64,000 bases of DNA, taken from assembly GCA_030145625.1 (NCBI GenBank), contig JAQYVF010000009.1:1-64000 (forward strand). The letters are read 5' to 3'. Positions 2,544 to 50,815 of the stretch are shown here, piece after piece. Numbering within the stretch: position 1 is the stretch's first letter; every line of letters starts with the position of its first letter. The notes beneath the pieces are model-generated. The model ran no database searches and was not told where the DNA came from. It saw only the letters and a program-made list of their open reading frames with translations. A program made the translations under genes and the position numbers. This DNA is from Desulfocapsa sp. Its GTDB lineage: Bacteria; Desulfobacterota; Desulfobulbia; Desulfobulbales; Desulfocapsaceae.

Positions 2544-4805
2544 ATGCCTGAACAAAACATAAACAGTTTCAGGGAGATGATTCGCATTATCATCCCTGCC
2601 TTGGTTGCTGTTTTTCTCTTTATATTCTCCTCTTTTTATCTTTTCATCCCAAAATTTGAAAAAAGTTTACTTGAAGACAAAAAACTGATGTTAAGGGAAC
2701 TTGTCCAGTCTTCCTGGTATGTGGTCAAGCACCTTGACAAGGAAGTCAGCCAGGGAAAATACAGCCTCAAGGATGCACAAACCAAGGCCATACATCATTT
2801 CCAATCCATGCGTTACGGAAGTGATGACAAAGACTATTTCTGGATAACCGATTTCACTCCAGTCTGCATCATGCATCCCTACAGACCAGACCTGGAAGGG
2901 AAAGACCTCTCCGCTCTTGTTGACCCCAACGGCACCAGGATTTTTATGGAGTTTGTCCAAAAGGTTGAAGAGCAAGGAGAAGGTTACGTATCTTATATGT
3001 GGCAGTGGATGGACGACCAAACTCGGATTGTCCCCAAAATTTCATTCGTCAAAGAATATAAACCCTGGGGATGGATAATCGGCACAGGAATTTATCTTGA
3101 AGATGTCGAGGCGCAAATTGCTTCGATGAAGAAAGGATTAACAGTTGCCTCGGTGAATATCCTTATCCTTGTCTTACTCATAGCATCATACCAAATTTAT
3201 CGAGCCTTCAATGTGCTCAAACTGCGCCAACAAGTGCTAAGAGATTTGGCATTTAAAAATTTAATCCTTTCAACCCAGCAGGAAACTTCACTTGATGGAA
3301 TTATAGTAGTAAATGAAAATGGGGAAATGGTCTCCTCTAATCAACGTTTTCTCACCATGTGGGGCATTCCGGCAGCGGCTGTCAAACCAAAGAATAATGA
3401 ATTAATCTTGCAGTTAATTCTCCCAAAACTGGTCAACCCTGAACAATTTCTAGACAAAGTCAACTACCTGTATGATCACCAAAACGAGAAAAGCATCGAT
3501 GAGATTATCTTAAAAGATGATCGGGTGTTTGACAGATATTCTTCCCCCATGTCCGGACCAGACGGTACTTATCTTGGCAGAGTATGGTATTTCCGCGACA
3601 TCAGTTACCAAAAACAGGCTGAGGAGGAAAAAAGCATACTGGAAGACCAGCTCCGCCAAGCACAGAAGATTGAAGCCATCGGCACATTGGCTGGTGGCAT
3701 TGCCCATGATTTCAACAACATCCTCACTCCCATCCTAGGGTATTCGGAGATGGCATTGGAAGATCTCCCCCCTGACAGCCCTGCTGTTTCAGAGATCCAA
3801 GAAGTAGTGCGTGCCGCAAACCGCGCTAAGGAATTAATTTCTCGAATTCTCACTTTCAGCCGCCAGGCAGAGCAAGAGTGGAAGCCTCTGAAAATTCAGT
3901 ATGTTTTAAAAGAAGCACTCAAATTACTACGGGCCTCCATTCCAACCACCATTGAAATCAAGCAAGAAACTGACCCACAGTGCGGAGCAGTCTTTGCTGA
4001 TCCCACACAAATTCACCAAATCATCATGAATCTCTGCACTAATGCCTATCACGCCATGCAAAAGAGTGGCGGGATATTAGCTGTCTCTTTAAATGAGATT
4101 GAACTTGACGCTGAGGACCTGCCATCCAAAATCACTCTGGTCCCTGGCCCCTACGTAAGGCTTGAGGTTACCGATAACGGTGTTGGCATGAATCAAGTCA
4201 CCATGGGAAGAATTTTCGAGCCCTACTTTACCACCAAACCAACAGGCAAAGGTACTGGGCTGGGACTTTCCGTTGTTCATGGTATTGTTAAAAGCTGTGG
4301 CGGAGAAATCACTGTTTATAGCGAGCCTGGTCTGGGTACAACCTTTCACCTCTATTTTCCGGTTATTGAGGAAGAACAACTTCTATCAGAAACTGACAAT
4401 AACCTCCAGATTCCTACTGGTGATGAAAAAATTCTACTGGTGGATGATGAAGAAATAATAGTAATTTTAGAGAAACAGATATTAGAGAAACTCGGTTATC
4501 AGGTCACTGCCTTCACTGACAGCGAAGAGGCATTACATGCCTTTAGCAACAAACCTGAATCATTTGACCTTCTCATTACCGATCTGACAATGCCACGAAT
4601 TACCGGTATACAACTAGCCAGGGAAGTGATTTCTGTCAGGGATGATATTCCAATAATTCTCTGCTCTGGATTCAGTGAAACAATGAATGGGGAACAAGCA
4701 ATGGCCCTGGGAATTCGGGAATATATCATGAAACCCGTCATCAAGAAAAACTTTGCTCAGACAGTACGAAAGGTACTGGATGAAAAGAGATCACCAGCCG
4801 TCTAA
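2544..4805 (+). CDS. Cache-PAS hybrid sensor histidine kinase with C-terminal receiver
   Basis: A 753-residue membrane sensor. Order: membrane helix (about 13-35); periplasmic single-Cache-type domain (about 40-195) with the typical DYFWI and PWGWIIGTGIYLED motifs; second helix (about 197-218); PAS-like region (240-350); dimerisation/phosphoacceptor helix with GGIAHDFNNIL (His about 388); HATPase with DNGVGM and GTGLGLSV; and a C-terminal receiver with LLITDLTMP (Asp about 680). Cache domains of this type bind small extracellular ligands such as organic acids or amino acids. The His-Asp fusion indicates a phosphorelay that needs a separate output protein. No response regulator gene is adjacent, so the partner lies elsewhere. 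The ATG at 2544 puts the first helix close to the N-terminus, as expected. Confidence 0.9.
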   Translation: MPEQNINSFREMIRIIIPALVAVFLFIFSSFYLFIPKFEKSLLEDKKLMLRELVQSSWYVVKHLDKEVSQGKYSLKDAQTKAIHHFQSMRYGSDDKDYFWITDFTPVCIMHPYRPDLEGKDLSALVDPNGTRIFMEFVQKVEEQGEGYVSYMWQWMDDQTRIVPKISFVKEYKPWGWIIGTGIYLEDVEAQIASMKKGLTVASVNILILVLLIASYQIYRAFNVLKLRQQVLRDLAFKNLILSTQQETSLDGIIVVNENGEMVSSNQRFLTMWGIPAAAVKPKNNELILQLILPKLVNPEQFLDKVNYLYDHQNEKSIDEIILKDDRVFDRYSSPMSGPDGTYLGRVWYFRDISYQKQAEEEKSILEDQLRQAQKIEAIGTLAGGIAHDFNNILTPILGYSEMALEDLPPDSPAVSEIQEVVRAANRAKELISRILTFSRQAEQEWKPLKIQYVLKEALKLLRASIPTTIEIKQETDPQCGAVFADPTQIHQIIMNLCTNAYHAMQKSGGILAVSLNEIELDAEDLPSKITLVPGPYVRLEVTDNGVGMNQVTMGRIFEPYFTTKPTGKGTGLGLSVVHGIVKSCGGEITVYSEPGLGTTFHLYFPVIEEEQLLSETDNNLQIPTGDEKILLVDDEEIIVILEKQILEKLGYQVTAFTDSEEALHAFSNKPESFDLLITDLTMPRITGIQLAREVISVRDDIPIILCSGFSETMNGEQAMALGIREYIMKPVIKKNFAQTVRKVLDEKRSPAV

Positions 4806-37271: not shown

Positions 37272-37559
37272 GCGAAGATACAGGTGGTCTTCCTTCTCCT
37301 TCCAAGCTGGACTCATCAGAAGGTGAGTAACCTTTCAGGATCACACTAACAACCTGTATCCCAATTTAACACCCCTTCCACCTTCTCATTTGACTCCTTA
37401 CCTCTCTTTATCATAGACTGTTGATAGAGTAAAAAATACGTACAATTATTTTCCTGTTACATGAATTGCCCCTTGCTTCTATGATTTTGCATTCATCGTC
37501 AACCTCCACAGGCAATGCCGCACGGTTTGGATTTTTTTGAAAAATCTAAGGTCTCGCTT

Positions 37560-39137
37560 ATGACAACAGATCACTCCGTCACCATTCTTACCATAGAAGA
37601 TGACCAACTGGTGCGTAAGGCGATCACTGCGTACCTGCAGAGACTTGGTTATCTTGTGCTCCAGGCTACAGATGGGGAAGAGGGTCTTGAGATATTTCGG
37701 AGGGCACACCCCGACCTTGTCCTCACCGATCTCCGACTGCCAAAACTTGATGGCATGGCACTCCTCTCTACTATCCAAAAAGAATCTCCAGACACTCCTG
37801 TTATCATTGTTTCCGGCATGGGTACCCTGGAAGACGCTATCAAGGCCTTAAAACTTGGTGCCAGAGACTATGTCACCAAACCGATTACCGACATGGGCCT
37901 GCTGGAACATGCAGCTGCCCGAGCTTTGGAACGAGTCAGACTGATCAAGGAAAACAGACGGTATCAGTCCTTTCTCGAAGAAGAGGTCCAGAAAAAGAAC
38001 GCTGAGCTCCAGCAGGCCCAAAAGCTTGAAGCCATCGGTACCCTTGCCGGAGGGATTGCCCATGACTTTAACAATATCCTTGCAGCCATCATAGGTTTCA
38101 CAGAACTTGCCCTGCTTAAAACAGAAAAAGAAAGTGAGGTCGCTGACTATCTGGGCCAGGTACAAAAAGCCGGTCGACGTGCAAAAGAACTGGTACTCCA
38201 ACTCCTCACCTTCAGTCGCAAGACAGATACAAAACGTCACCCTATTCAAGCAGCGCTCATCATCAAAGAGGCCTTGAAATTTACCCAGGCAACGCTGCCG
38301 GCCACAGCCCGAATATCTCATTTCATCAATGCAAAAGAGACAATGATCCTGGCAGATCCTACCGAGATTCATCAGATAATCACCAACCTCTGTACCAATG
38401 CCTTCCATGCCCTGCCTGATGAACAGGGTACAATCACAGTAACCCTTGATGACGTCAACAACAGCACAGACGAACTGAGAAAGCAGCCGAAGCCGGCAGT
38501 CGGCAACTATCTGCAACTTACGGTCAGTGATGATGGATGCGGCATGGACCAGAAAATCCAGAATAGTATTTTCAACCCCTTTTTTACCACCAAGGAAAAG
38601 GAACAAGGCACCGGTCTTGGTCTTTCCGTGGTGCATGGTATCGTCACAGACATCGGCGGCACTATCAAGGTGAAGAGTGAAGCGGACAAGGGTTCGACAT
38701 TCACCCTCCTGTTTCCGGCAATAGAGACAAGCACACAAGAAACTGTCCCTGTCGTCTCCCTGCCCTGCGGCAACGAGCGCATCCTGTTTGTTGATGATGA
38801 AGAGGAGTTACGACTACTGGCCGAGCGAATGCTTACCTACCTCGGTTACTCTGTTCTCTGCTGCTCTTCCGGTCAAGACGCCCTGGAAAAATTCAAAGAG
38901 GATACTGCCGCTTTCGACCTGGTCATCACTGATCAATCCATGCCTCAGATGCCAGGAACAGAGCTGACAAAGGAAATATTAGCCATCACTCCTGGTCTGC
39001 CGATACTCCTCTACACCGGCTACAGTTCCATGATCGACAAAGAAAAAGCCATGGCCATGGGAATCAGGGGGTTTCTTCTAAAACCACTCTCAATCAGCAC
39101 AATGGCCCAGGAGATACGAAGCATTCTTGATAACTAG
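37560..39137 (+). CDS. hybrid histidine kinase REC-HisKA-HATPase-REC
   Basis: A 525-residue soluble kinase. It has an N-terminal receiver (Asp about 57 in LVLTDLRLPK), a short coiled coil, a phosphoacceptor helix GGIAHDFNNIL (His about 168), an HATPase with DDGCGMD and GTGLGLSVVHG, and a second receiver (Asp about 458 in LVITDQSMPQ). No membrane segment or sensory domain is present, so input comes through the first receiver. The ATG at 37,560 is preferred over one 45 bp upstream because the receiver begins there. The last codon is five bases from a palindromic MITE copy. It probably acts as a phosphorelay node for the neighbouring kinases. Confidence 0.9.
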   Translation: MTTDHSVTILTIEDDQLVRKAITAYLQRLGYLVLQATDGEEGLEIFRRAHPDLVLTDLRLPKLDGMALLSTIQKESPDTPVIIVSGMGTLEDAIKALKLGARDYVTKPITDMGLLEHAAARALERVRLIKENRRYQSFLEEEVQKKNAELQQAQKLEAIGTLAGGIAHDFNNILAAIIGFTELALLKTEKESEVADYLGQVQKAGRRAKELVLQLLTFSRKTDTKRHPIQAALIIKEALKFTQATLPATARISHFINAKETMILADPTEIHQIITNLCTNAFHALPDEQGTITVTLDDVNNSTDELRKQPKPAVGNYLQLTVSDDGCGMDQKIQNSIFNPFFTTKEKEQGTGLGLSVVHGIVTDIGGTIKVKSEADKGSTFTLLFPAIETSTQETVPVVSLPCGNERILFVDDEEELRLLAERMLTYLGYSVLCCSSGQDALEKFKEDTAAFDLVITDQSMPQMPGTELTKEILAITPGLPILLYTGYSSMIDKEKAMAMGIRGFLLKPLSISTMAQEIRSILDN

Positions 39138-39282: not shown

Positions 39283-39383
39283 TAAAACAGATGGAAACAA
39301 TCATCAACCGCCTAACAAGCATCTACGTTTTGCTATCAGGTCTCAGCTGAATAGAGTGAACTCCTCAAGGGAGAGAAGAGAAG

Positions 39384-39416
39384 ATGGAAACAACAACAGA
39401 AAAAAAAACATCATGA
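39384..39416 (+). CDS. possible 10-codon leader peptide
   Basis: An ATG at 39,384 preceded by GGGAGAGAAGAGAAG opens a 10-codon frame (METTTEKKTS) whose TGA overlaps the ATG of the sensor kinase at 39,413. The kinase start itself lacks a ribosome site, so translation may be coupled through this leader. It is purine-rich and short, so chance is a real alternative. Confidence 0.35.
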   Translation: METTTEKKTS

Positions 39417-41368
39417 AAGAAACACATCCATCCCGGAAATCACTATTCCCTCTAAAGCGCCATACCATTATTCTGACAACTGTGTGGACTGCATTCATCA
39501 TCCTGGGGACGGTCTGGCACTTGTTCGAGGCGTACCAGAATACGATGCAGTCAGCATACATCCAGGCGACACGCTCATTTGAAAAGGATCTGGTATACCG
39601 ACAATGGGCCGCGAGTCATGGTGGCGTTTATGTACCGATAAGCAAAGAGACTCCCCCCAATCCCTACCTGTCGCATATAAAAAATCGTGACATCACCACC
39701 ACAGACGGACAAAAACTGACCCTGGTCAATCCCGCCTACATGACCCGTCAGGCATATGAAATCGGGTACAAAGAATTTAACCATCAAGACCATATCACCA
39801 GCCTCAATCCCATTCGCCCTGAAAATAAACCGGATAGTTGGGAGGCCAAAGCGCTGCAAAAATTTCAACAGGGCAAGACCGAGGTAAGCGAATCCGCAAA
39901 AATCGGAGACACTGAATACTTCCGTATGATGCGACCACTGATCACCGAGTCCTACTGTCTAAAATGCCACGCAACACAGGAATACAAAGAAGGCGACCTG
40001 CGTGGCGGCATCAGTATATCTGTACCGACAGAACCGCTATGGATACTCATGCACAATCATTTAACTACCTTCATCATGAGCTACGGCCTCGCCTGGCTGC
40101 TGGGCCTGGCCGGCATAAAATTCGCTACCTTGCGCATAGGACAACATATCCGTAAGCGCGACCAGGCTGAGGAGGCGCTGCAGAACACATTGACGGAATA
40201 CACCGATCTCTACAACAATGCCCTGGATATGTTTGTCTCAGTGGATACCACCAATGCACAGATCATTCAGTGCAACCAGACTCTGCTTTCGACTCTGGGC
40301 TACAACAGGGAAGAAATCATCGGCCGCCCTGTTTTTGACATCTACCACCCTGACTGTCTTGAAGAAATCAAAAATGACATCCTTCCCACCTTTTTCAGAA
40401 CAGGGCTCATTACGAACAAGGAGGTAATGCTGCACTGTAAAGATGGCTCTCCCTTGTCCGTGACCCTTGATCTTTCAGCTGTTCGAGACAAGAACAACAG
40501 GATCATTCAAAGCAGATCAATCCTGCATGATATTTCTGACCGAAAAAGTCTGAGAGAACAACTCATTATCAGTGAGAAAATGGCTACTATCGCAGGACTG
40601 GCCGCAGGTGTTGCCCATGAAATCAACACCCCTCTTTCGGGAATTCTTCAATCAATTCAAATCATTGAATTGGGACTTGACCCGGAGCAGAAAGAGAACC
40701 GCAGCCTTGCCGCCGACTGCGGCATAGAACTTGCCAATGTCCAAAACTACCTGCAGAAAAAAGAGCTTGATTTCTTTCTCAACGGCATCAAAGACTCTGC
40801 CACCACGGCAGCCCATATTATCTCCGACCTCCTCCAATTCAGCCGACCGCAGATGAGTGAACGCATTACAGTCGACCTATCTGATCTGATTGACCGTTCC
40901 GTGGAACTCGCCAAGACGGATTATTTACTGAAGAAGGAGTATAATATACTCAATGTGAAGTTCATCAAAGAGTACAGTTCGGATCTCCCCGAAGTCAACT
41001 GCATGGCCATGGAGATAGAACAGGTTCTCATCAACCTCATCAAGAACAGTTGCCAGGCCATGGCAGAAGATGGAGGTCCTGCAGCCCCGCACATTATTAT
41101 TCGCACAAGGCAACGGGACATGATGGCAGTGATTGAGGTGGAAGATAATGGTCCAGGTATAGAAGGAAAGATCCACCGTCAGATCTTTGATCCTTTCTTC
41201 ACCACTAAGGATATCGGCAAAGGAACCGGTCTTGGTCTTACCGTATCCTATTCCATTATCTGTGACAAACATGGTGGCACCATGCAGGTAACGAGCATAC
41301 CCGCCAACCACACAATAATTATCATAGAACTTCCTATCACAGGAGTCAGGGATAATACAAATGAGTAA
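39413..41368 (+). CDS. sensor histidine kinase with DUF3365/Tll0287-like heme-motif domain and PAS
   Basis: A 651-residue membrane kinase. A first helix (about 17-37) is followed by a periplasmic DUF3365-like domain (about 40-215) carrying ESYCLKCHATQEYKEGDLRGGISISVP, where C182-x2-C185-H186 is a c-type heme motif. A second helix (about 220-240), PAS (270-380), phosphoacceptor helix AAGVAHEINTPLSGIL (His about 402) and HATPase with DNGPGIEG and GTGLGLTVSYS follow. The domain suggests sensing of redox state or a gaseous ligand. It is the first gene of a four-gene overlapping unit. A GTG 57 bp upstream is an alternative start. Confidence 0.9.
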   Translation: MKETHPSRKSLFPLKRHTIILTTVWTAFIILGTVWHLFEAYQNTMQSAYIQATRSFEKDLVYRQWAASHGGVYVPISKETPPNPYLSHIKNRDITTTDGQKLTLVNPAYMTRQAYEIGYKEFNHQDHITSLNPIRPENKPDSWEAKALQKFQQGKTEVSESAKIGDTEYFRMMRPLITESYCLKCHATQEYKEGDLRGGISISVPTEPLWILMHNHLTTFIMSYGLAWLLGLAGIKFATLRIGQHIRKRDQAEEALQNTLTEYTDLYNNALDMFVSVDTTNAQIIQCNQTLLSTLGYNREEIIGRPVFDIYHPDCLEEIKNDILPTFFRTGLITNKEVMLHCKDGSPLSVTLDLSAVRDKNNRIIQSRSILHDISDRKSLREQLIISEKMATIAGLAAGVAHEINTPLSGILQSIQIIELGLDPEQKENRSLAADCGIELANVQNYLQKKELDFFLNGIKDSATTAAHIISDLLQFSRPQMSERITVDLSDLIDRSVELAKTDYLLKKEYNILNVKFIKEYSSDLPEVNCMAMEIEQVLINLIKNSCQAMAEDGGPAAPHIIIRTRQRDMMAVIEVEDNGPGIEGKIHRQIFDPFFTTKDIGKGTGLGLTVSYSIICDKHGGTMQVTSIPANHTIIIIELPITGVRDNTNE

Positions 41369-43079
41369 GAACGAAGAGACAATTCTAATTGCTGAAGATG
41401 ATCCGCTTGTTCGTAAAACAACGGCTCATTATCTGGCAAAAAAGGGTTTTATCATCCTTGAAGCCGGCAATGGAGATGACGCATTACAGTTGTTCAGAGA
41501 AAAAAAACCGGACATCCTTCTTACTGACCTGCGTATGCCGAAACTGGACGGCATGCAGCTCATTCAAACAGTAACGGAAGAATATCCGCATATACCGGTG
41601 ATTATTTTCTCCGGCATGGGAACAATGAGTGATGTCATAGAGGCATTGCGCGCCGGAGCCTGGGATTATCTCACCAAACCGATAACAAACCTGGATATTC
41701 TTGTTCACAGCATCAACAAGGCCTTGGAACGGGCAAAACTTCTTCGCCAGGAAAAATTATACCAGGAAAAACTTGAACAGGAAGTAAATAAACGCACCAT
41801 AGAACTGCAGCAGCAGAACAGACAGCTCGAACAGGAGATACAGGAACGTAAGGTGCAGGAAGCTCTGGTTCTCCATGCCAAACAGGAGTGGGAACGTACC
41901 ATTGACGCCATGCCTGATATGGTTGCCATTATTGATGTGGAACACTCCATTGTTCGCATGAATAAAACCATGCTCGATCAACTTGGCAAATCCTACGATG
42001 AACTCCTGAATACAAAATGCTTTCTTTGTGCCCATGGCTCAGAGGAAGCGCCCGAGTACTGCCCGCACAGCAAACTCCTCCAGGACAGTAGGCCCCACCG
42101 AACTGAAATCTATGAAGAACGTCTTGGCGGACACTGCGAGGTCATAGTGACTCCCTACTATGACCCTGACGGTACTCTTCTCGGCTCCGTCCACATTGCC
42201 AGAAATATCAACGCACAGAAAAAGGCTGCCCTGGAAAAGGAGAAACTGCAATCCCAACTGCTCCATGCCCAAAAGCTTGAATCAGTGGGACAGCTGGCGG
42301 CCGGCATTGCCCATGAAATCAACACCCCCACTCAATTCATCGGCACCAACATCGCCTTTCTTGATGAAGCGGATCAGGACATCAGTGACTTCATGACACA
42401 GATCCAGGAAATTGCCAAGAAAGCCCCCCAGGAGATCGCTGCAGAGATAAACAAGGCCCTGGAAGAGATGGATTGGGCTTACCTGTCCAAAGAAATCCCC
42501 TTGGCCATTAAGCAATCGTTTGATGGCGTAAAACGTGTCAGATCCATTGTCCTGGCCATGAAGGAATTCTCTCACCCGGGAAATAAGAACAAAAACCCAA
42601 TGAATCTGAATCAAATCATCAACACCACTGTAACGGTTGCCCGAAACGAGTGGAAATACGTGGCCGACATGGAGATGGACCTTGATCCGGAGCTCCCGGA
42701 AATTCCACTGTTGGCAGATGAAATGAGCCAGGTTGTTCTTAATATGTTAGTCAATGCCGCCCATGCCATCGGTGAAAAACTGGGAGATGACCCGGCGGGA
42801 GACAAAGGAAAAATCTCCATCACCACCAAAAAGAATAAAAACGGAATTGAGATGCGTATCCACGACACCGGAGCCGGTATGCCTAATCATGTGCAGCTCC
42901 GTATCTTCGATCCTTTTTACACCACCAAAAAGGTTGGCAAGGGTACAGGCCAGGGTTTGGCAATCAGCCATGATGTGATTGTCGATAAACACCAGGGAAC
43001 CATTGAGGTAAAATCGGTCTTAGGTGAAGGCACAACATTTATTATCCAACTGCCTTTAAAAGATGGAGAAGAGCAATGA
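41361..43079 (+). CDS. receiver-PAS histidine kinase
   Basis: A 572-residue soluble protein. It has an N-terminal receiver (Asp about 56 in ILLTDLRMPKLDG), a long coiled coil (about 125-175), a PAS domain with a Cys-rich stretch, CFLCAHGSEEAPEYCPHS, a phosphoacceptor helix AAGIAHEINTPTQFIG (His about 318), and an HATPase with HDTGAGMP and GTGQGLAISHDVIV. It overlaps the upstream kinase by 8 bp and the downstream gene by 4 bp. It is probably the target of the DUF3365-type kinase and in turn phosphorylates the following REC proteins. The clustered cysteines in the PAS might bind a metal or respond to redox, which is only a suggestion. Confidence 0.9.
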   Translation: MSKNEETILIAEDDPLVRKTTAHYLAKKGFIILEAGNGDDALQLFREKKPDILLTDLRMPKLDGMQLIQTVTEEYPHIPVIIFSGMGTMSDVIEALRAGAWDYLTKPITNLDILVHSINKALERAKLLRQEKLYQEKLEQEVNKRTIELQQQNRQLEQEIQERKVQEALVLHAKQEWERTIDAMPDMVAIIDVEHSIVRMNKTMLDQLGKSYDELLNTKCFLCAHGSEEAPEYCPHSKLLQDSRPHRTEIYEERLGGHCEVIVTPYYDPDGTLLGSVHIARNINAQKKAALEKEKLQSQLLHAQKLESVGQLAAGIAHEINTPTQFIGTNIAFLDEADQDISDFMTQIQEIAKKAPQEIAAEINKALEEMDWAYLSKEIPLAIKQSFDGVKRVRSIVLAMKEFSHPGNKNKNPMNLNQIINTTVTVARNEWKYVADMEMDLDPELPEIPLLADEMSQVVLNMLVNAAHAIGEKLGDDPAGDKGKISITTKKNKNGIEMRIHDTGAGMPNHVQLRIFDPFYTTKKVGKGTGQGLAISHDVIVDKHQGTIEVKSVLGEGTTFIIQLPLKDGEEQ

Positions 43080-44293
43080 GTAAAAAAAAGATCCTTTTTG
43101 TAGATGATGAAGCCAATATCCTCTCAGGCTTAAAGCGCATGCTACGTTCAATGCGCAATGAATTTGATCTGCAATTTGCCGAGAGCGGCAAAGAGGCGCT
43201 TGAGATCATGGCAAGTGATAACTTTGACGTAGTGGTTTCAGACATGCGTATGCCAGGCATGGATGGGGCAGCACTGCTCACGGAAATACAGAAACTCCAC
43301 CCCTGTTCCATTCGCATCATGCTCACCGGACAGGCCGATGAAGAATCGATATTACGTACAGTAGGTATTGTCCATCAGTTTCTCGCTAAACCGTGTGAAT
43401 CGGAGCATCTCAAGGCTATCCTGTTACGAGCAAGTGCCTTGCATGAACTTATCTCTCAGGATGCGCTGAAAAAAATAGTCTCACAGCTTGGCACCTTACC
43501 CAGTCTGCCTGAAGTCTATGCAAAACTGCGCAAAGCCATGACAAACCCGGAGGTATCCATAGCAGAAGTTGCAGAAATCATAGAAGAAGATATGGCCATG
43601 AGTGCCAAGGTCCTGCAGTTAGTGAATTCAGCGTTTTTCGGTCTGTTTCAAAAGGTGGAGAGTCCGGCCCGTGCCGTAAATCTTTTAGGGCTTGATACCG
43701 TTAAAAACCTGGTCCTGGGTGTTGGTGCTTTTTCTGAGATCAAGGCCTCCTCCAAGCTTTTCTCTATCAAAAAACTCTGGTCACACAGTATGACAGTGGG
43801 AACCCTTGCCAAGGAAATTGCCTTGAGTGAGTCCGACGACAAGGAACTTATTGATAACTGTTTTCTTGCCGGTCTCCTCCATGACATCGGCAAGCTGGTA
43901 TTGCTTGCACAAATGGCGGACAAGTATGAAGAGGCAGTTCTGCTTGCCAGAGAGAACAATATCTGCCTGCGTACAGCTGAGAAGGAGATCTTTGATACGG
44001 TTCATGGGGACATCGGAGCATATTTAATGGGCTTATGGGGAATGCCCGGACCGGTGGTTGAGGGCATTGGCTTTCACCATCGTCTGGATAACTACCCAGG
44101 CAGGCAGTTTAACCCAGCAATTGCTGTCCATGCCGCCAATGCCATTTATTATGAAAACCGGCCCGATGAGCTTGTTGGCGCTCCCCATGAAATAGCCATG
44201 GTCCACTTGCAGAGCTTGGGACTAGGTGATAAAATAGACCACTGGCGTGAAGTTTGTGCTAAATCGTTTGAACAGGATAACAATGATGATTGA
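43076..44293 (+). CDS. response regulator REC-HDOD
   Basis: A 405-residue output protein. The receiver occupies 1-120 (KILFVDDEANILSGLKRML, Asp about 56 in VVSDMRMPGMDG, KPCE near its end). An HDOD domain follows (about 140-345: LPSLPEVYAKLRKAM, IEEDMAMSAKVLQLVNSAFFG, CFLAGLLHDIGKLVLL). HDOD proteins are regulators often linked to c-di-GMP signalling and motility, without a fixed enzymatic activity. It overlaps both neighbours, so the stoichiometry is tied to the kinases. The same REC subtype opens the following gene. Confidence 0.9.
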   Translation: MSKKKILFVDDEANILSGLKRMLRSMRNEFDLQFAESGKEALEIMASDNFDVVVSDMRMPGMDGAALLTEIQKLHPCSIRIMLTGQADEESILRTVGIVHQFLAKPCESEHLKAILLRASALHELISQDALKKIVSQLGTLPSLPEVYAKLRKAMTNPEVSIAEVAEIIEEDMAMSAKVLQLVNSAFFGLFQKVESPARAVNLLGLDTVKNLVLGVGAFSEIKASSKLFSIKKLWSHSMTVGTLAKEIALSESDDKELIDNCFLAGLLHDIGKLVLLAQMADKYEEAVLLARENNICLRTAEKEIFDTVHGDIGAYLMGLWGMPGPVVEGIGFHHRLDNYPGRQFNPAIAVHAANAIYYENRPDELVGAPHEIAMVHLQSLGLGDKIDHWREVCAKSFEQDNNDD

Positions 44294-45422
44294 AAAAATT
44301 TTACTGGTAGATGACGAACCGAATATCCTTCAGGCCATGCAACGTCAACTACGTAAGCGTTTTGAAATAACGACTGCGGAAAGTGGAACTGAAGCCCTTG
44401 CAAAATTAAAGGAGCAGGGGCCTTTTGCCGTTATTGTGTCAGATATGCGCATGCCCGGCATGGACGGCATACAACTTCTCAGCAGAGTGAAGGCCGGCTT
44501 TCCTGATACTGTTCGCATTATGCTCACCGGTAATGCCGACCAGGAAACAGCTACAGAAGCGGTAAATGTAGGCCAGATTTTTCGTTTCCTCAACAAACCC
44601 TGTTCGACTGGCGTGTTAGCAACATCCATAGCCCTTGCCGTACGCCAGTACAACTTGATTACCGCAGAAAAAGAGCTGCTCAATAAGACCGTGAAAGGCA
44701 GCATCACTGTTATGGCCGAACTGCTCAGCCTCGCCAATGCCACGGCCTTCAGCAGTGGATACAGAATCAAACCAATGGTCAAACACATTGCCCAAGAACT
44801 CCAAGTAACAAACCCCTGGCAATATGAAGTGGCAGCACTGATGTCTCAAATAGGATGCATCACCCTGCCCAGTGATATTTTACACAAGCTGCATGCAGGC
44901 ATCAGCCTCTCGGCGGAAGAACAGCAGATGTATGAAAATCATCCTAAAGTAGGCAGCAAGCTTATCGGAAAAATTCCCAGGTTGGAAAAAGTCGCTGCAA
45001 TGATCGAACATCAGCTTCGCCCTTTTGACTATTGCGACGAGCAAGACTCCCTGGACGAAGAAATTACCCTCGGTGCCAACACCCTGAAGGCGGTCATAGA
45101 ATACGACCTGCTGCGCCAGCAGGACCTGGGCCACCTGCGTGCTCTTAAGCACATGCGTAAACGAGCAGGGAGATACAACCCCGACATACTCGGTCTTCTG
45201 GAGAAGCACAAACCAAAAGAGGTACATGCCACAATCAAAAATCTCAGTTTTAAAGATATCATTCCCGGCATGATTGCAGTCGAAGATGTTTTTGCCAAGA
45301 ACGGCACTATGCTTATTCCGAAAAATCAAGAAATCACCTGGCCCGTCATCCAGAGTCTGACGAACTTTGAAAAACACATTGGCATTATCGAGCCGATTCG
45401 CGTACGTTCCAGTGAGGTGTAA
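44283..45422 (+). CDS. response regulator REC with degenerate HD-GYP-like domain
   Basis: A 379-residue protein. The receiver (1-120) has KILLVDDEPNILQAMQRQL and Asp about 54 in VIVSDMRMPGMDG. The next domain follows the HD-GYP pattern (AALMSQIGCITLPSDIL, YENHPKVGSKLIGKIPRLEKVAAMIEHQ), but the metal-binding HD is SQ and no GYP motif follows, so phosphodiesterase activity is unlikely. The C-terminus (FKDIIPGMIAVEDVFAKNG, TMLIPKNQEITWPVIQ) resembles the small module found after such domains. It overlaps REC-HDOD by 11 bp; the ATG at 44,286 is also possible. It is probably a non-catalytic c-di-GMP-related or scaffold output. Confidence 0.85.
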   Translation: MMIEKILLVDDEPNILQAMQRQLRKRFEITTAESGTEALAKLKEQGPFAVIVSDMRMPGMDGIQLLSRVKAGFPDTVRIMLTGNADQETATEAVNVGQIFRFLNKPCSTGVLATSIALAVRQYNLITAEKELLNKTVKGSITVMAELLSLANATAFSSGYRIKPMVKHIAQELQVTNPWQYEVAALMSQIGCITLPSDILHKLHAGISLSAEEQQMYENHPKVGSKLIGKIPRLEKVAAMIEHQLRPFDYCDEQDSLDEEITLGANTLKAVIEYDLLRQQDLGHLRALKHMRKRAGRYNPDILGLLEKHKPKEVHATIKNLSFKDIIPGMIAVEDVFAKNGTMLIPKNQEITWPVIQSLTNFEKHIGIIEPIRVRSSEV

Positions 45423-45514: not shown

Positions 45515-48226
45515 CTATTTCTCTTCCAGGACTTCCCAGACGGCATCAAGAAGCTTGTCCCCATGAATCGGTTTAAAAACATATCTTTTTATGCCCATGG
45601 CAAGGGCCTTTTCTTCGGAAACAATATCACTGTGCCCCGAACACATAATAATGGGCAGGGACGGTTTGATTTTCAATACGGCTTTAGCCAGTTCTGCACC
45701 CGTCAGTCCCGGCATGGTCTGATCAGTAATGAGCATATCAAACATCTCCGACTGACTGCGGAAGACCTCAAGGGCCTCCCTGCTGTCTGAAAACGCAGTG
45801 ACCTGATACCCTCTGCTTTCCAAACGCCTTTTGTTGATTTTCACCAGAAGCAGTTCATCATCCACCATCAATATTCTCGCATTACCGGTGGATATCACTG
45901 CCCTGTCTTTCTCTTCAGCAGCTATGGTCTGGGTAACCGACTCGTCTGTTACAGGCAAGTAAACGGAAAAAATGCTCCCCCTGCCAACGCGACTTTCAAC
46001 ATCAACAAACCCTTTACAATCCTCAACTGCACCATGGACAACAGCAAGTCCTAGACCGGTGCCTCTCCCCACTTCTTTAGTAGTGAAATAGGGTTCAAAG
46101 ATCCTATCAATGGTTGGCGAATCCATGCCACAACCGTTATCCATGACAGTGAGAACAACAAAGGAACCGGTAAAGACACCCCCCTCACTAAAGATTTCCC
46201 CACCACTGAGTTCCCGTCTATGTAAGCCCACACTCAAGGTTCCCTTCTGCTCATCCATGGCAGACAGGCCATTGGTACAGAGGTTGACAACCACCTGATG
46301 TATGACGGTAGGGTCAGCCAATATCACCCCACAATCAGGATCAATATCTTCCTTTATCTCAACAGTTGCAGGCATGGTTGCACGGAGCATCTTCAATGCT
46401 TCCTGGACAATCAGATGGGGGTGGAGGGCCTGTTTTTCACTGTCCACCTGACAACTGAAAGTGAGGATCTGTCTGACAAGACTTGTTGCCCGTTTCCCTG
46501 CTCTAAGGACCTCTGCAATATTCTTTCCAGCCTCACTCTCTGCCGAAACATCTTCTCGAACAAATTCGGCATATCCTAAAATTGCAGAAAGAATATTATT
46601 GAAATCATGGGCAATTCCACCTGCCATGGTGCCAATGGCCTCCATTTTCTGAGATTGGACAAGTTTCTTTTCAAGATTTTTCAGATCAGAGATATCCTTG
46701 GCCACATGGGCGATATATTCAAGTTCACCCGATTCATCAAATACCGGAGCGGCAGAGACCAAAAATGTCTTCCCCAGTTTTCCATGGTACATCTCGCGAC
46801 TACAGGGCACCAGGATCTTTTTAGTCTCCACAAGAGGGCACCCCGGACAGGGCTCTTCTGAACCATGAAAGAGCTCGTAACAATGATACCCGATAATCTC
46901 ATGACTGGGAGAAGCTAGCATGGTACATGCTGCTTGATTGGCCTTAACTATACGCAGGTCAGTATCATGGAGGATGACGATATCAGAAAACGAATTAAAA
47001 GTTCGATCCCACTGTTCCTTGCTTTTGCGAATAGCCCGTTCCACCTGTTTTCGCTCAGTAACATCATGGGCAATGCCACTAATGGATACAAATTCCCCCT
47101 GCTCATCATAAGAAAACCTGGCAGTCCACAACAAATCATGGACATCACCTGTTTTCAAATTAACCAGTCGGCTTTCAATCTTTGATTGAATCAGTTGTCT
47201 ATTGAGACAATTTTCAAACCAGCCTGCTGAGATTTCAAAATCATCCGGATGGATAAAATCAAAGACATTTTGACCTATCACTTTTTCAGGATCCTGACCG
47301 AATATTTCCTTGCTCATGTGGTTGATATAGACCAGATTTCCCTTCGCATTCACCTGAGCTATCAGATCAGTAGTTCCTTCCACCAGCTCCTGATATCTCT
47401 GCGCCATTTCTTTACGCAGTGTTATATCTAAGACAATGGCAGCAAAAACAGGCCTGGCACGATACTCTGTTTTCTGGAGATACACCTCTACAGGATAGGT
47501 GGAACCATCCTTGCGTCTGTGAACAGTCTCAAAAACTATTTTCTCTTTTTGGCCATCTTTTAATAATGCCCCTCTTTCTGCAAAAGCAAGGGATGTGCTC
47601 TCGGGATCAATATCCATGGGAGTCATTTCCATAAATTCCGACAGAGAGTATCCCATATTTGTCCGTGCACCTTCATTCATATACACAAACTTAGAGCTGT
47701 CAGCATCTATGAGGTAAATTTCATTAAGTGATTTTTCTATGATCTGAGTTAAATTTTTTTCCCGATTGAGCGACTTACGTAATTTGACGGTTCGCTCTTC
47801 CACCATGGATTCAAGACGTTCGTGATAGTTGCGCAATTCGTCTTCATTCTTTTTCCGTTTAAGCGCCTGTTTGACGGTGGCCGGCAGGATTTTGAGGTAA
47901 TGGCCATCAGGATCTTTGATGAGATAATCATAGGCGCCCAATTTCATGGCTTCCACAGCCACTTCTTCATTCCCGGTACCGGTGGTTACAATGACCGGGA
48001 GTCCTTTAAACTGGTCAAAGAGTTCAAAAGATACCCCGTCTCCAAGCCAATAATCTGAAATAACGACATCGAAATCGGTTGACTGGAGAATTTTCTCTGC
48101 CTCAGCAATGGACCCGGCAATGCTATAGTCATAAGGCAGCTCCTTCTTTTTGACGTACCTCTCAAACGCCATCTGATCCACTTTATCATCCTCAACAAGA
48201 AGAAGACGGATTGCTTTCTCTGTCAC
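45515..48226 (-). CDS. hybrid kinase REC-PAS-PAS-PAS-HisKA-HATPase-REC
   Basis: A 903-residue soluble kinase. It has an N-terminal receiver (Asp58 in VVISDYWLGDG), a coiled coil (125-160), and three PAS domains (about 165-270, 275-395, 400-515; the third has CPGCPLVETKK with paired cysteines). The phosphoacceptor helix is GGIAHDFNNIL (His540), the HATPase has DNGCGMD and GTGLGLAVVHG, and the C-terminal receiver has LITDQTMPGLTG. The start is GTG with AAGGGAAAA upstream. It is the last gene of the converging minus-strand signalling group, 95 bp after the single-domain receiver. The PAS with CxxCP could carry a cofactor, but that is not proven. Confidence 0.9.
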   Translation of the reverse strand: MTEKAIRLLLVEDDKVDQMAFERYVKKKELPYDYSIAGSIAEAEKILQSTDFDVVISDYWLGDGVSFELFDQFKGLPVIVTTGTGNEEVAVEAMKLGAYDYLIKDPDGHYLKILPATVKQALKRKKNEDELRNYHERLESMVEERTVKLRKSLNREKNLTQIIEKSLNEIYLIDADSSKFVYMNEGARTNMGYSLSEFMEMTPMDIDPESTSLAFAERGALLKDGQKEKIVFETVHRRKDGSTYPVEVYLQKTEYRARPVFAAIVLDITLRKEMAQRYQELVEGTTDLIAQVNAKGNLVYINHMSKEIFGQDPEKVIGQNVFDFIHPDDFEISAGWFENCLNRQLIQSKIESRLVNLKTGDVHDLLWTARFSYDEQGEFVSISGIAHDVTERKQVERAIRKSKEQWDRTFNSFSDIVILHDTDLRIVKANQAACTMLASPSHEIIGYHCYELFHGSEEPCPGCPLVETKKILVPCSREMYHGKLGKTFLVSAAPVFDESGELEYIAHVAKDISDLKNLEKKLVQSQKMEAIGTMAGGIAHDFNNILSAILGYAEFVREDVSAESEAGKNIAEVLRAGKRATSLVRQILTFSCQVDSEKQALHPHLIVQEALKMLRATMPATVEIKEDIDPDCGVILADPTVIHQVVVNLCTNGLSAMDEQKGTLSVGLHRRELSGGEIFSEGGVFTGSFVVLTVMDNGCGMDSPTIDRIFEPYFTTKEVGRGTGLGLAVVHGAVEDCKGFVDVESRVGRGSIFSVYLPVTDESVTQTIAAEEKDRAVISTGNARILMVDDELLLVKINKRRLESRGYQVTAFSDSREALEVFRSQSEMFDMLITDQTMPGLTGAELAKAVLKIKPSLPIIMCSGHSDIVSEEKALAMGIKRYVFKPIHGDKLLDAVWEVLEEK

Positions 48227-48321
48227 AAGTTTTCCCTTTCTTTGATCGGAACCAAGCCCCCTTGATAGGGCCTTGTCATTAAATTATTTTTTTGTGCTCA
48301 TATGGTTGCACACATATCTGC

Positions 48322-48735
48322 TTATTCCGGCAGTTCACTCAAGGTCCAATAGAGATCGATTGTTTTAACCACTTCAACAAATTTCCGATAATCGACCGGT
48401 TTGACCATATACCCGGCAATGCCTAGTTTGAAGCTGTCAATCTTATCCTGGTCGGCCCTGGATGTGGTGAGAACAATAACGGGAATCTTTTGCAGGCTAT
48501 CGTCTGTTTTGACTATCTGCAGAAATTCGATACCATTCATTCTGGGCATATTAAGATCAAGCAATATAATACCAGGCCTTTCATTTTCAGAATTTTGCAG
48601 AAAGGCCAAGGCCTTTTCGCCGTCATCCACAATCTCCAAGCGGTTGGCGACATTGATTTCCTTCAAGGCCCGTTTAACCGTCATGGCATCGACCTGATCG
48701 TCTTCCACCAAAAGAATGGGTTTAGAGCTTCTCAT
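48322..48735 (-). CDS. single-domain response regulator (Rcp1/CheY-like)
   Basis: A 137-residue receiver: KPILLVEDDQVDAMTVKRAL, phosphoacceptor in ILLDLNMPRMNGIEFLQ, LTTSRADQDKI, and KPVDYRKFVEVV. This subtype is the usual partner of phytochrome-like kinases. The ATG at 48,735 has GGGAG upstream and overlaps the kinase stop by 14 bp; an upstream extension lacks support. It should receive phosphate from the kinase at 48,722-50,815 and pass it to the hybrid kinase, having no output domain. Confidence 0.93.
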   Translation of the reverse strand: MRSSKPILLVEDDQVDAMTVKRALKEINVANRLEIVDDGEKALAFLQNSENERPGIILLDLNMPRMNGIEFLQIVKTDDSLQKIPVIVLTTSRADQDKIDSFKLGIAGYMVKPVDYRKFVEVVKTIDLYWTLSELPE

Positions 48736-50815
48736 CTTTTTCTCCCTTTTTTTTGGGTAGTGTAAAAAAGAATGTAGTCCCTTTTCCCGATTCCGACTCC
48801 ACCCAGACAGAACCACCATAGAGGTCGATAATTTTTTTGACCAGAGTCAGGCCGATTCCCGTACTTTCGTGTTCATCGCGAGGCCTCAGTGTCTGAAATA
48901 TCTGGAATATCTTCTCATGATATTTTTTGTCAATTCCAGGGCCGTTATCAGATACACTGAATTTCCAGAATGCTCCTTCGTCGACACAGCCCACTTTTAC
49001 AATCCCTTCATCCTTATCCATATATTTCATGGCATTTCCGAGAAGGTTCTGAAAGACCTGCTCCATCCGGGTGGAATCTTTGAAGACCACGGGCAACTTA
49101 TTTTCAAAGAGTATCTGAATAGTATCCCGCGGTGCGATGCTGTCAATCACCTCCTCAACAAGGAGGTTCAGATCCAAGCGTTTTTCCTTTTCTTTAATTC
49201 GACCAATACGTGAGTAGCGCAGAATACCATCGATAAGTCCATCCATACGTTTGACTCGTTGCAGGATTAAATGCATCTGCTCCTTCCCTTCTGCATCAAA
49301 CCCTGCGGAATAATCTTCAGAAAGCCAGTGAGTGAGTTGACTGATGGCCCTGAGCGGTGCTTTGAGATCATGGGAAACCACATAGGCAAATTCTTTCAAC
49401 TCCTTGTTTGCAGTATCATATTCACTGTTTACTTTCTGGAGCTTATCTCTGGAGTTGTTCACGTCTTCAAGAAGATATGTGAGGGCTTTGCTCGATTTTT
49501 CAACTTTTTCTGTCTTGTCCTGCAGTTCTTCTGTCCGTTCTTGAACCAATTCCTCCAACTGATTGCGATAGAGCGACAATTCAGCTTCTGCCTGCATGCG
49601 TTTAGTCACATCAGACAGTGAAACAAAGACCTTCGACCATGTATCTTCATAGCCTGGTACCACTGTCAATCCCAATACCACTTGAATTTCATTGCCCTGA
49701 AGCGTTTTATTGACAGTCTGTAACTCAAAATTATATTTCCCCTCAGCCAGACAAATAAGTTCTTCTCTAAAGGCCTCATAGGACTTCTGTCCGAAGACCG
49801 TATCCAGATTTCTATAAAGCAGGTCCTTACTGCCAGCCCCTAATATTTTCAGGGTTTCCCGATTTACATCTATAATCTTAATCAGCTGTGCGCATGTATC
49901 GACGGATTCCGGATGGATTGTAAAATAGGACCTAAAGTCAGTAACATCGGAAGAACGCAGTTGATCAATGCATTTCCTGACAGCTGAAAAGTCTTCTTCC
50001 CATAACGAAATGGGCGCCTCTTCAAATAACACTCGATAGCGACTTTCACTTTTCCGCAGCGACTCCTCCACCTGCCTGCGTTCAGTGATTTCCCCCTGAA
50101 GCTGATGATAGGATGCCTGCAAAGTCATTCGCATTTCATTGATAGCCTCTGCAAGTATATCAAACTCATCTTTTATCCTGTTCTGTTGCTTACGCATCAG
50201 AACAAAAGGTTTTTCCAAAGTATGCAGATCCAAGGCATTGGCATAACTTGCCAATGCATGAAGGTGTCGGGCAACTAACATATAGAAGATAAAAAAGATA
50301 AATCCGGAAACCATAAATGTTTTGATACTTTGTGAAACGATAATGACAATGGCTTTTTGTGTCAGGCGATCATATAGATTTTCCAAGGTGTAAACGATAT
50401 GAAGCCGTCCCAACGGAATCGTTTTGTTGCCATAGGTATAAGACAAAAGAAACTCATTTTTTACCACATGTGCAGCTTGAATCTCTCCAGCTTTTGCGAC
50501 TATTTCATTTTCATACACCACATCGACATACTGCATATCAGGCAATTTCAGTATCCCTTCAAGTTGGATCTGCAAAAGCTCCGTATCAGAAAGCCAGAGG
50601 CTTTTGATAATACCGTCAAGGTAGCTAACTTCAATCTGGGTGACACTTTTTTCTATTGAATCAAGTCCATACCTGTAGTCACCATGGAGCTGAATCACTA
50701 TCAAGACCAAGGTAACAGTAGAACTGAACAGCACAATGTACAAGATGAACTTTTGAACAATACTCCGTCCTAACACATTATTTTTATTTGTATTTCCAAT
50801 ATATTGCATGCTCAT
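48722..50815 (-). CDS. membrane sensor histidine kinase, phytochrome-like transmitter
   Basis: A 697-residue protein with an N-terminal helix (about 22-42), a periplasmic region of about 110 residues, a second helix (about 160-185), a HAMP-like segment (210-245), a PAS-like domain (265-400) and a long coiled coil (400-470). The transmitter has YVVSHDLKAPLRAISQLT, NLLGNAMKYMDKDEG, SDNGPGIDKKYHEKIF and GIGLTLVKKIIDLYGG. The transmitter type pairs with Rcp1-like receivers, as found downstream. The gene starts immediately after the binding-protein stop (TAA then ATG), suggesting the periplasmic protein feeds a ligand signal to this kinase. Confidence 0.9.
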   Translation of the reverse strand: MSMQYIGNTNKNNVLGRSIVQKFILYIVLFSSTVTLVLIVIQLHGDYRYGLDSIEKSVTQIEVSYLDGIIKSLWLSDTELLQIQLEGILKLPDMQYVDVVYENEIVAKAGEIQAAHVVKNEFLLSYTYGNKTIPLGRLHIVYTLENLYDRLTQKAIVIIVSQSIKTFMVSGFIFFIFYMLVARHLHALASYANALDLHTLEKPFVLMRKQQNRIKDEFDILAEAINEMRMTLQASYHQLQGEITERRQVEESLRKSESRYRVLFEEAPISLWEEDFSAVRKCIDQLRSSDVTDFRSYFTIHPESVDTCAQLIKIIDVNRETLKILGAGSKDLLYRNLDTVFGQKSYEAFREELICLAEGKYNFELQTVNKTLQGNEIQVVLGLTVVPGYEDTWSKVFVSLSDVTKRMQAEAELSLYRNQLEELVQERTEELQDKTEKVEKSSKALTYLLEDVNNSRDKLQKVNSEYDTANKELKEFAYVVSHDLKAPLRAISQLTHWLSEDYSAGFDAEGKEQMHLILQRVKRMDGLIDGILRYSRIGRIKEKEKRLDLNLLVEEVIDSIAPRDTIQILFENKLPVVFKDSTRMEQVFQNLLGNAMKYMDKDEGIVKVGCVDEGAFWKFSVSDNGPGIDKKYHEKIFQIFQTLRPRDEHESTGIGLTLVKKIIDLYGGSVWVESESGKGTTFFFTLPKKKGEKDEKL

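Follow-up and report, generated by a model that had tools for sequence, protein, structure and literature searches.

The window analysed here comprises the 64,000 nucleotides at positions 1 to 64,000 of contig JAQYVF010000009.1 of Desulfocapsa sp. (GCA_030145625.1), which in our numbering is contig C62 of a 229-contig, 4.98 Mb genome. Between positions 39413 and 45422 it carries four genes that form a co-directional operon on the forward strand and encode a sensor histidine kinase with a c-type heme motif (gene 1), a second histidine kinase with a receiver domain (gene 2) and two response regulators, one of the REC-HDOD type (gene 3) and one in which REC precedes a degenerate HD-GYP domain (gene 4). 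A kinase, a REC-HDOD protein and a REC-pseudo-HD-GYP protein recur together as a cassette with differing sensors, an arrangement that is new here. This wider cassette, with the conserved SQxGC site of its pseudo-HD-GYP protein, looks to be the under-described part of the system.

Organization of the locus

The following features were compiled from open reading frame (ORF) calls, Pfam matches and motif inspection (TM, transmembrane segment).

37515..39137, + strand: upstream hybrid kinase, REC-HisKA-HATPase-REC by Pfam, 540 aa; probable fifth member of the locus
39384..39416, + strand: leader ORF of 10 codons, METTTEKKTS, seen in the sequence; its stop overlaps the gene 1 start (ATGA)
39413..41368, + strand: gene 1, TM-sCache_heme(Tll0287)-TM-PAS-HisKA-HATPase sensor kinase, 651 aa, by ORF and Pfam
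39686..40027, + strand: Tll0287-like / sCache_heme domain of gene 1 (PF11845, 82.4 bits; fold matches 5b82 and 3b42)
39956..39970, + strand: CLKCH, c-type heme attachment motif, residues 182-186; Cys pair and His invariant in 10/10 aligned domains
41361..43079, + strand: gene 2, REC-PAS-histidine kinase, 572 aa; H-box His318, REC Asp56
43076..44293, + strand: gene 3, REC-HDOD response regulator, 405 aa; REC Asp56, HD residues H269 and D270 kept
44283..45422, + strand: gene 4, REC-pseudo-HD-GYP response regulator, 379 aa; REC Asp54
44844..44858, + strand: SQIGC, residues 188-192 of gene 4, in place of the catalytic HDxGK; conserved in a 106-row alignment

The original prediction had described a four-gene overlapping operon, and both the ORF coordinates and the overlaps (8 bp between genes 1 and 2, 4 bp between genes 2 and 3, 11 bp between genes 3 and 4) were reproduced. 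The fixed stoichiometry that it drew from these overlaps was rejected as a non sequitur, for gene overlaps do not imply it. Its four-gene unit is real as a locus, but the conserved unit consists of a kinase, REC-HDOD and REC-pseudo-HD-GYP with varying sensors, and a fifth gene, that of the upstream hybrid kinase, also belongs to the local arrangement.

For gene 1, the ATG at 39413 was preferred over the listed GTG at 39356, and its relative in locus L047 starts likewise. No clear ribosome site belonging to gene 1 itself could be made out by eye. The leader ORF at 39384-39416, which contains a run of nine A and whose TGA overlaps the gene 1 ATG, could couple translation to gene 1.

The output pair and its cassette

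Gene 4 matches REC and HD_5 (84 bits) in Pfam. Fold searches with its structural model returned rows dominated by the receiver domain, and the assignment of the output half therefore rests on the HD_5 match. In that half HDxGK has become SQIGC, the HH pair has become QL and GYP is absent; an active HD-GYP phosphodiesterase was thus rejected, the catalytic HD, HH and GYP residues being gone. We aligned the window protein with 105 distinct relatives of at least 29% identity, weaker relatives being dropped. Across these 106 rows the HDxGK replacement shows S in 99, Q in 98, G in 106 and C in 103 (93, 92, 100 and 97%), and one member of the HH pair is replaced by Q244 in 104/106 (98%), against a mean of 52% for the HD part; 15/106 rows depart from SQ. 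The replaced columns are among the most conserved of the HD part and have therefore been selected for rather than left to decay. Judged by this alignment, SQxGC is a conserved replacement of the catalytic site.

We consider it highly improbable that gene 4 is a decaying HD-GYP protein with no function of its own, leaving gene 3 as the sole output. Such decay would agree with the wide retention of just a single His (H220, 95/106) among the catalytic residues checked, with the 22/107 distinct gene-4 loci that have no gene 3 nearby, some of them cut by contig ends, and with an internal stop in one relative (G084), but the 92-100% conservation of S, Q, G, C and Q244 indicates a site under selection.

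Gene 3 matches REC and HDOD (PF08668, 201 bits) and keeps H237, H269 and D270 in 19/19 rows. In its HDOD part it matches structures 3ljx and 3p3q of MmoQ, which we take to be a REC-HDOD protein. We know of no agreed biochemical role for HDOD outputs. Pfam found no DNA-binding domain in genes 3 and 4, in agreement with the earlier claim that the outputs are two REC proteins of the c-di-GMP (cyclic di-GMP)/HDOD type instead of transcription factors; gene 4, however, has lost the catalytic residues of that type.

Loci with a gene-4 relative were collected from 28 other genomes of the same order (38 loci) and from named records (80 loci, the best 80 of at least 555 confirmed candidates, found with receiver peptides), giving 118 besides the window, which reduce to 107 distinct loci. 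This set leans to close relatives, so conservation may be overstated, and some loci are cut by contig ends, so the cassette counts are lower bounds. Gene 3 lies on the same strand within 3.5 kb of gene 4 in 85/107 distinct loci, in the order 3-4 in 74 of these and 4-3 in 11. A related kinase occurs on the same strand within 7 kb in 79/107, kinase and gene 3 are both present in 72/107, and gene 3 accompanies a kinase matched by the gene 2 core in 70/107. The records, mostly metagenome-assembled genomes (MAGs) whose phylum names we give as labelled, are titled Desulfobacterota, Planctomycetota, Chloroflexi, Acidobacteria, Nitrospirae, Calditrichaeota, Lentisphaerae and Dethiobacter. Among these best 80, gene 4 has its closest counterpart in a MAG labelled Proteobacteria (89%), followed by MAGs of Desulfocapsa sulfexigens (80%) and Desulfocapsaceae (79%). 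Plasmid records yielded no gene 4 relative at 1e-30. A search of open-licence PMC titles and abstract starts found no description of a REC-HDOD plus degenerate HD-GYP pair, which is weak evidence of absence.

Gene 4 was compared with characterized systems. NF053512 (NosR) was the only NCBIfam model at 1e-20 among 30 gene-4 rows and was matched by 30/30. NosP-NosK-NosR systems, e.g. in Burkholderia, likewise combine a heme nitric oxide (NO) sensor, a kinase and a REC-degenerate HD-GYP protein (PMC12570481). They differ from the window locus, in which the sensor is a heme-Cache domain and not FIST and in which a REC-HDOD protein and a second kinase are added. The Burkholderia NosR carries HG-GTP instead of HD-GYP (PMC12570481), as against SQxGC in gene 4. 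Gene 4 as a NosR was rejected, the NF053512 score being 239.3 bits against a cut-off of 400 and FIST being absent from the genome; a FIST partner is present in the relatives L061 and L152.

In Shewanella, the degenerate HD-GYP regulator HnoD suppresses the EAL enzyme HnoB by direct interaction, and two kinases converge on three regulators (review PMC6335343). The HnoK/HnoS-HnoB/HnoC/HnoD system of Shewanella oneidensis thus resembles the window locus in its two kinases and in a degenerate HD-GYP protein that acts by contact and is devoid of phosphodiesterase activity (PMC6335343); unlike it, the window locus lacks H-NOX and has neither an EAL nor a DNA-binding regulator. No EAL domain was found in the six locus proteins scanned with Pfam. 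A link to H-NOX was rejected: the 29 genomes contain one H-NOX match, on contig C52 of G083, where gene 4 lies on C175. By analogy, gene 4 is taken to work like HnoD and NosR, yet we file it as a member of neither. As for gene 3, the REC-HDOD protein DVU0330 also keeps its HD residues and showed weak activity on bis(p-nitrophenyl) phosphate and none on c-di-GMP (PMC4114195); gene 3 differs from such regulators in being encoded beside a pseudo-HD-GYP regulator.

Three further observations concern gene 4 relatives. In L058 (G084:C45:21470-22600) a single in-frame TAG splits the protein into a receiver frame and an output frame. PDB entry 3kcn, a Rhodopirellula receiver annotated as 'adenylate cyclase', shares 50% identity with the receiver of gene 4 and for this reason may come from a planctomycete gene 4 relative and not from a cyclase. 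A small REC protein (166-215 aa) lies directly 3' of gene 4 in L118:11183-11683, L121:4987-5634 and L140:11179-11748; these 3/3 scanned proteins are REC, and similar-sized genes follow gene 4 in other loci.

The heme-Cache sensor, the second kinase and two receiver types

Pfam assigned to gene 1 a Tll0287-like domain (PF11845, 79.9 bits against a cut-off of 24.1), PAS_9, HisKA and HATPase_c. Two hydrophobic stretches, at approximately residues 17-38 and 217-238, flank the CXXCH at residue 182 as TM segments, and the kinase core has its H-box His402 in AHEINTP together with DxGxG and GxGxG boxes. The sensor model (pLDDT 87.9) places a helix at 161-170 between strands, as in a Cache fold. Its best fold match is Tll0287 (5b82, E 2.3e-5, TM-score 0.53, rmsd 7.5), followed by GSU0935 (3b42, E 9e-4), which is tied with the unrelated chain 3cax; GSU0582 (3b47) ranks 14th (E 0.024). 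A phmmer search of PDB with the single sensor stretch gave no match up to E 1; a 10-row sensor profile recovers 5b82. The periplasmic DUF3365-like domain with CxxCH that had been noticed in gene 1 is therefore upheld by the Pfam score, the motif and the fold match to Tll0287.

DUF3365/Tll0287 (PF11845) has been renamed sCache_heme, a heme-bearing Cache domain, in a 2026 preprint (PMC12889525). Gene 1 shares with the domains described there the Cache fold, CXXCH, two flanking TM segments, fusion to a signalling module (here a kinase) and the lack of an axial Cys; the abstract, introduction, results and discussion of the preprint describe neither the gene 1 kinase nor its downstream partners. 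The only Cys residues of gene 1 before residue 287 are C182 and C185 of CXXCH, and the absence of a third sensor-domain Cys excludes Tll0287-type Cys/His ligation. By its architecture and the absent third Cys, gene 1 thus belongs, as predicted from sequence, to the signalling-type sCache_heme class. The sole signalling-type protein tested, which has no axial Cys, bound NO tightly, released it slowly and gave no stable complex with oxygen, and NO binding was weak in a stand-alone protein that has Cys/His ligation (PMC12889525).

We lean towards NO over redox state as the signal perceived by gene 1. In a possible though somewhat doubtful alternative, the relay would be the same, but its heme domain would respond not to NO but to the redox potential of the periplasm or to an electron acceptor, the distal ligand changing with redox state. 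This alternative is favoured by the redox behaviour of GSU0582 and GSU0935 given below (PMC8396549). In addition, Met110, a putative ligand, is conserved in 9/10 aligned sensor domains, and the closest named relatives of gene 4 among the best 80 of at least 555 bear Desulfocapsa titles; Desulfocapsa species are sulfur disproportionators. Against this alternative stand the tight NO binding and lack of a stable oxygen complex reported for the preprint's one signalling-type protein (PMC12889525), and the pairing of a NosP-type protein with the same cassette in two relatives.

Gene 2 has REC, PAS and HATPase_c domains by Pfam. It gave no HisKA match there, but an H-box, AHEINTP, is present from residue 317, together with DxGxG and GxGxG boxes. 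The acceptor Asp is kept in the receivers of genes 2, 3 and 4 (56, 56 and 54). Relatives of the hybrid kinase accompany the same genes in five loci, with identities of 77% in L047 (cut by the contig end), 79% in L085, 69% in L048 and L086, and 53% in L077.

The receivers of the locus fall into two types: the first REC of the hybrid kinase and that of gene 2 are 53% identical, and the receivers of genes 3 and 4 are 49% identical. Searches of the genome agreed with this division. The nearest other REC to that of gene 2 was the first REC of the hybrid (51%, 146.6 bits, next 118.8; 146 matches including itself, with 150/171 candidates scored), and the nearest to that of gene 4 was gene 3's (47%, 87.8 bits, next 72.5; 106 matches, with 150/164 candidates scored). 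In the collected loci, 14/14 gene-1-type kinases above 200 bits adjoin a protein with the first REC type; all come from gene-4 neighbourhoods, and three pairs share a contig, leaving 11 distinct. The next-nearest genome receiver to that of gene 2 belongs to an orphan REC-HD-GYP protein with an intact motif on C35 (G000, the window's own genome). As a guess, this protein, which shares 36% identity with the REC-HD-GYP of L088, could be the missing active partner.

Sensor exchange and a candidate relay

The heme-Cache domain is not tied to one kinase. In the window, L047 and L085 it sits on a separate kinase, gene 1, beside genes 3-4; in L076 and L077 (one genus), L107 and L120 the gene immediately upstream of genes 3-4 encodes a gene-2-type kinase that carries it. 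Of the 40 gene-4 loci in 29 genomes, 6 lie within 7 kb of a PF11845 match, where gene density predicts 0.64; they form three same-genus pairs (G000/G093, G137/G108 and G101/G085) and so represent approximately three independent events. FIST/NosP and a kinase are co-directional with the cassette in L152 (FIST-kinase-3-4) and L061 (4-3-FIST-kinase), and in L106 FIST lies ~5 kb off on the opposite strand. A phosphonate-binding domain accompanies the cassette in L101 and L149, Peripla_BP and NMT1-like neighbours in L052, and other cassette kinases carry HAMP, GAF, REC-PAS or PAS-only inputs. In L086, titled Desulfocapsa, the hybrid is followed by a kinase that joins GAF and PAS domains to a core of the gene-1 type; L048 has no gene 1 between the hybrid and gene 2.

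From these data we tentatively propose a two-kinase operon in which a periplasmic heme-Cache kinase responding to NO or redox state would signal through gene 2 to two non-DNA-binding regulators that tune c-di-GMP enzymes. The periplasmic Cache domain of gene 1 would hold a c-type heme and sense NO (or redox state), and its phosphate would pass to the receivers of gene 2 and of the upstream hybrid, which are of one type. The gene 2 kinase would then phosphorylate the receivers of genes 3 (HDOD) and 4 (pseudo-HD-GYP), which form a pair. Gene 4, having no residues for c-di-GMP hydrolysis, would most likely act by binding, e.g. by retaining or freeing genuine c-di-GMP enzymes in the manner of Shewanella HnoD, and gene 3 would be a protein-binding or weak phosphohydrolase module. 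The redox- or gas-responsive relay to post-translational control suggested in the original prediction gains from the sequence and fold tests passed by the heme-Cache domain, from relatives that rearrange the same parts and from outputs devoid of a Pfam DNA-binding domain.

It seems to us rather unlikely that there is no relay and that the two kinases work side by side, each phosphorylating genes 3 and 4 directly, with the gene 2 REC serving only as a local brake. Parallel action would suit the four loci in which heme-Cache sits directly on a gene-2-type kinase beside genes 3-4 (L076, L077, L107 and L120), as well as the convergence of two kinases on three regulators in Shewanella (PMC6335343). 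The window heme domain, however, is carried by the other kinase type, which adjoins the different REC type in 14/14 rows.

Several observations weigh against the proposed NO relay as a whole. FIST lies within 7 kb in 1/40 gene-4 loci (0.10 expected), the FIST-linked L061 carries SR and not SQ, and neither FIST nor H-NOX is matched in the window's genome. Genes 2-4 are retained in the close relatives L048 and L086, whose fetched stretches show no heme-Cache match. No c-di-GMP enzyme is encoded in the operon. A gene-4 match at 1e-40 is found in 29/146 genomes of the same order and in just 4/8 genomes of the same genus (own included), which makes gene 4 patchy. The solved signalling-type relatives GSU0582 and GSU0935, which bind CO as well as NO, are described as redox sensors; they have a Met ligand, which is released upon oxidation with a switch of spin state (PMC8396549). 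A dedicated NO module was rejected, for cassette kinases elsewhere carry phosphonate-binding, GAF, HAMP, PAS-only and REC-PAS inputs.

The row of genes divergent from gene 4 in L088 encodes a REC-HD-GYP protein with intact HD and GYP, a kinase of the gene-1 type, a relative of gene 2 and a heme-Cache-GGDEF protein, an arrangement that would point to c-di-GMP as the affected system. The window's genome has 5 PF11845, 32 GGDEF, 6 EAL and 21 HD_5 matches, and 2 of the cytochrome c assembly family PF01578; in a rough motif scan, 15/21 HD_5 loci have HDxGK or HDxGM together with HHE and GYP or GFP (L176 and L186 among them are stretches of one frame and may be one motif).

A bolder reading, which we regard as rather unlikely, is that an unnamed output cassette spans many bacterial phyla, that SQxGC creates a new site which binds a nucleotide, a metal or a partner enzyme and takes the place of c-di-GMP hydrolysis, and that in the window a relay of two tiers connects the cassette to a periplasmic NO sensor of the heme-Cache type. 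If the relay proposed above is right, a newly described periplasmic NO-sensing domain would gain a concrete downstream pathway, and a conserved pseudo-enzyme family would be defined by an exact, testable motif. The role of HDOD becomes testable as well, since dozens of loci supply it with the same partner and with a cognate kinase.

Two loci elsewhere and one nearby complete the picture of the surroundings. In L088, the heme-Cache-GGDEF fusion lies at 3296-4657 (-). In the window's own genome, a single 507-aa frame at G000:C61:33268-34539 combines a heme-Cache domain with an intact-motif HD_5 and is predicted to be a heme-regulated c-di-GMP enzyme. Convergent signalling genes occupy 45515-50815 of the window on the - strand: the first encodes, by Pfam, a REC-PAS-kinase-REC protein with several PAS domains, and a lone REC and another kinase were recognized by eye. 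A 918-aa relative occupies the same place in L047.

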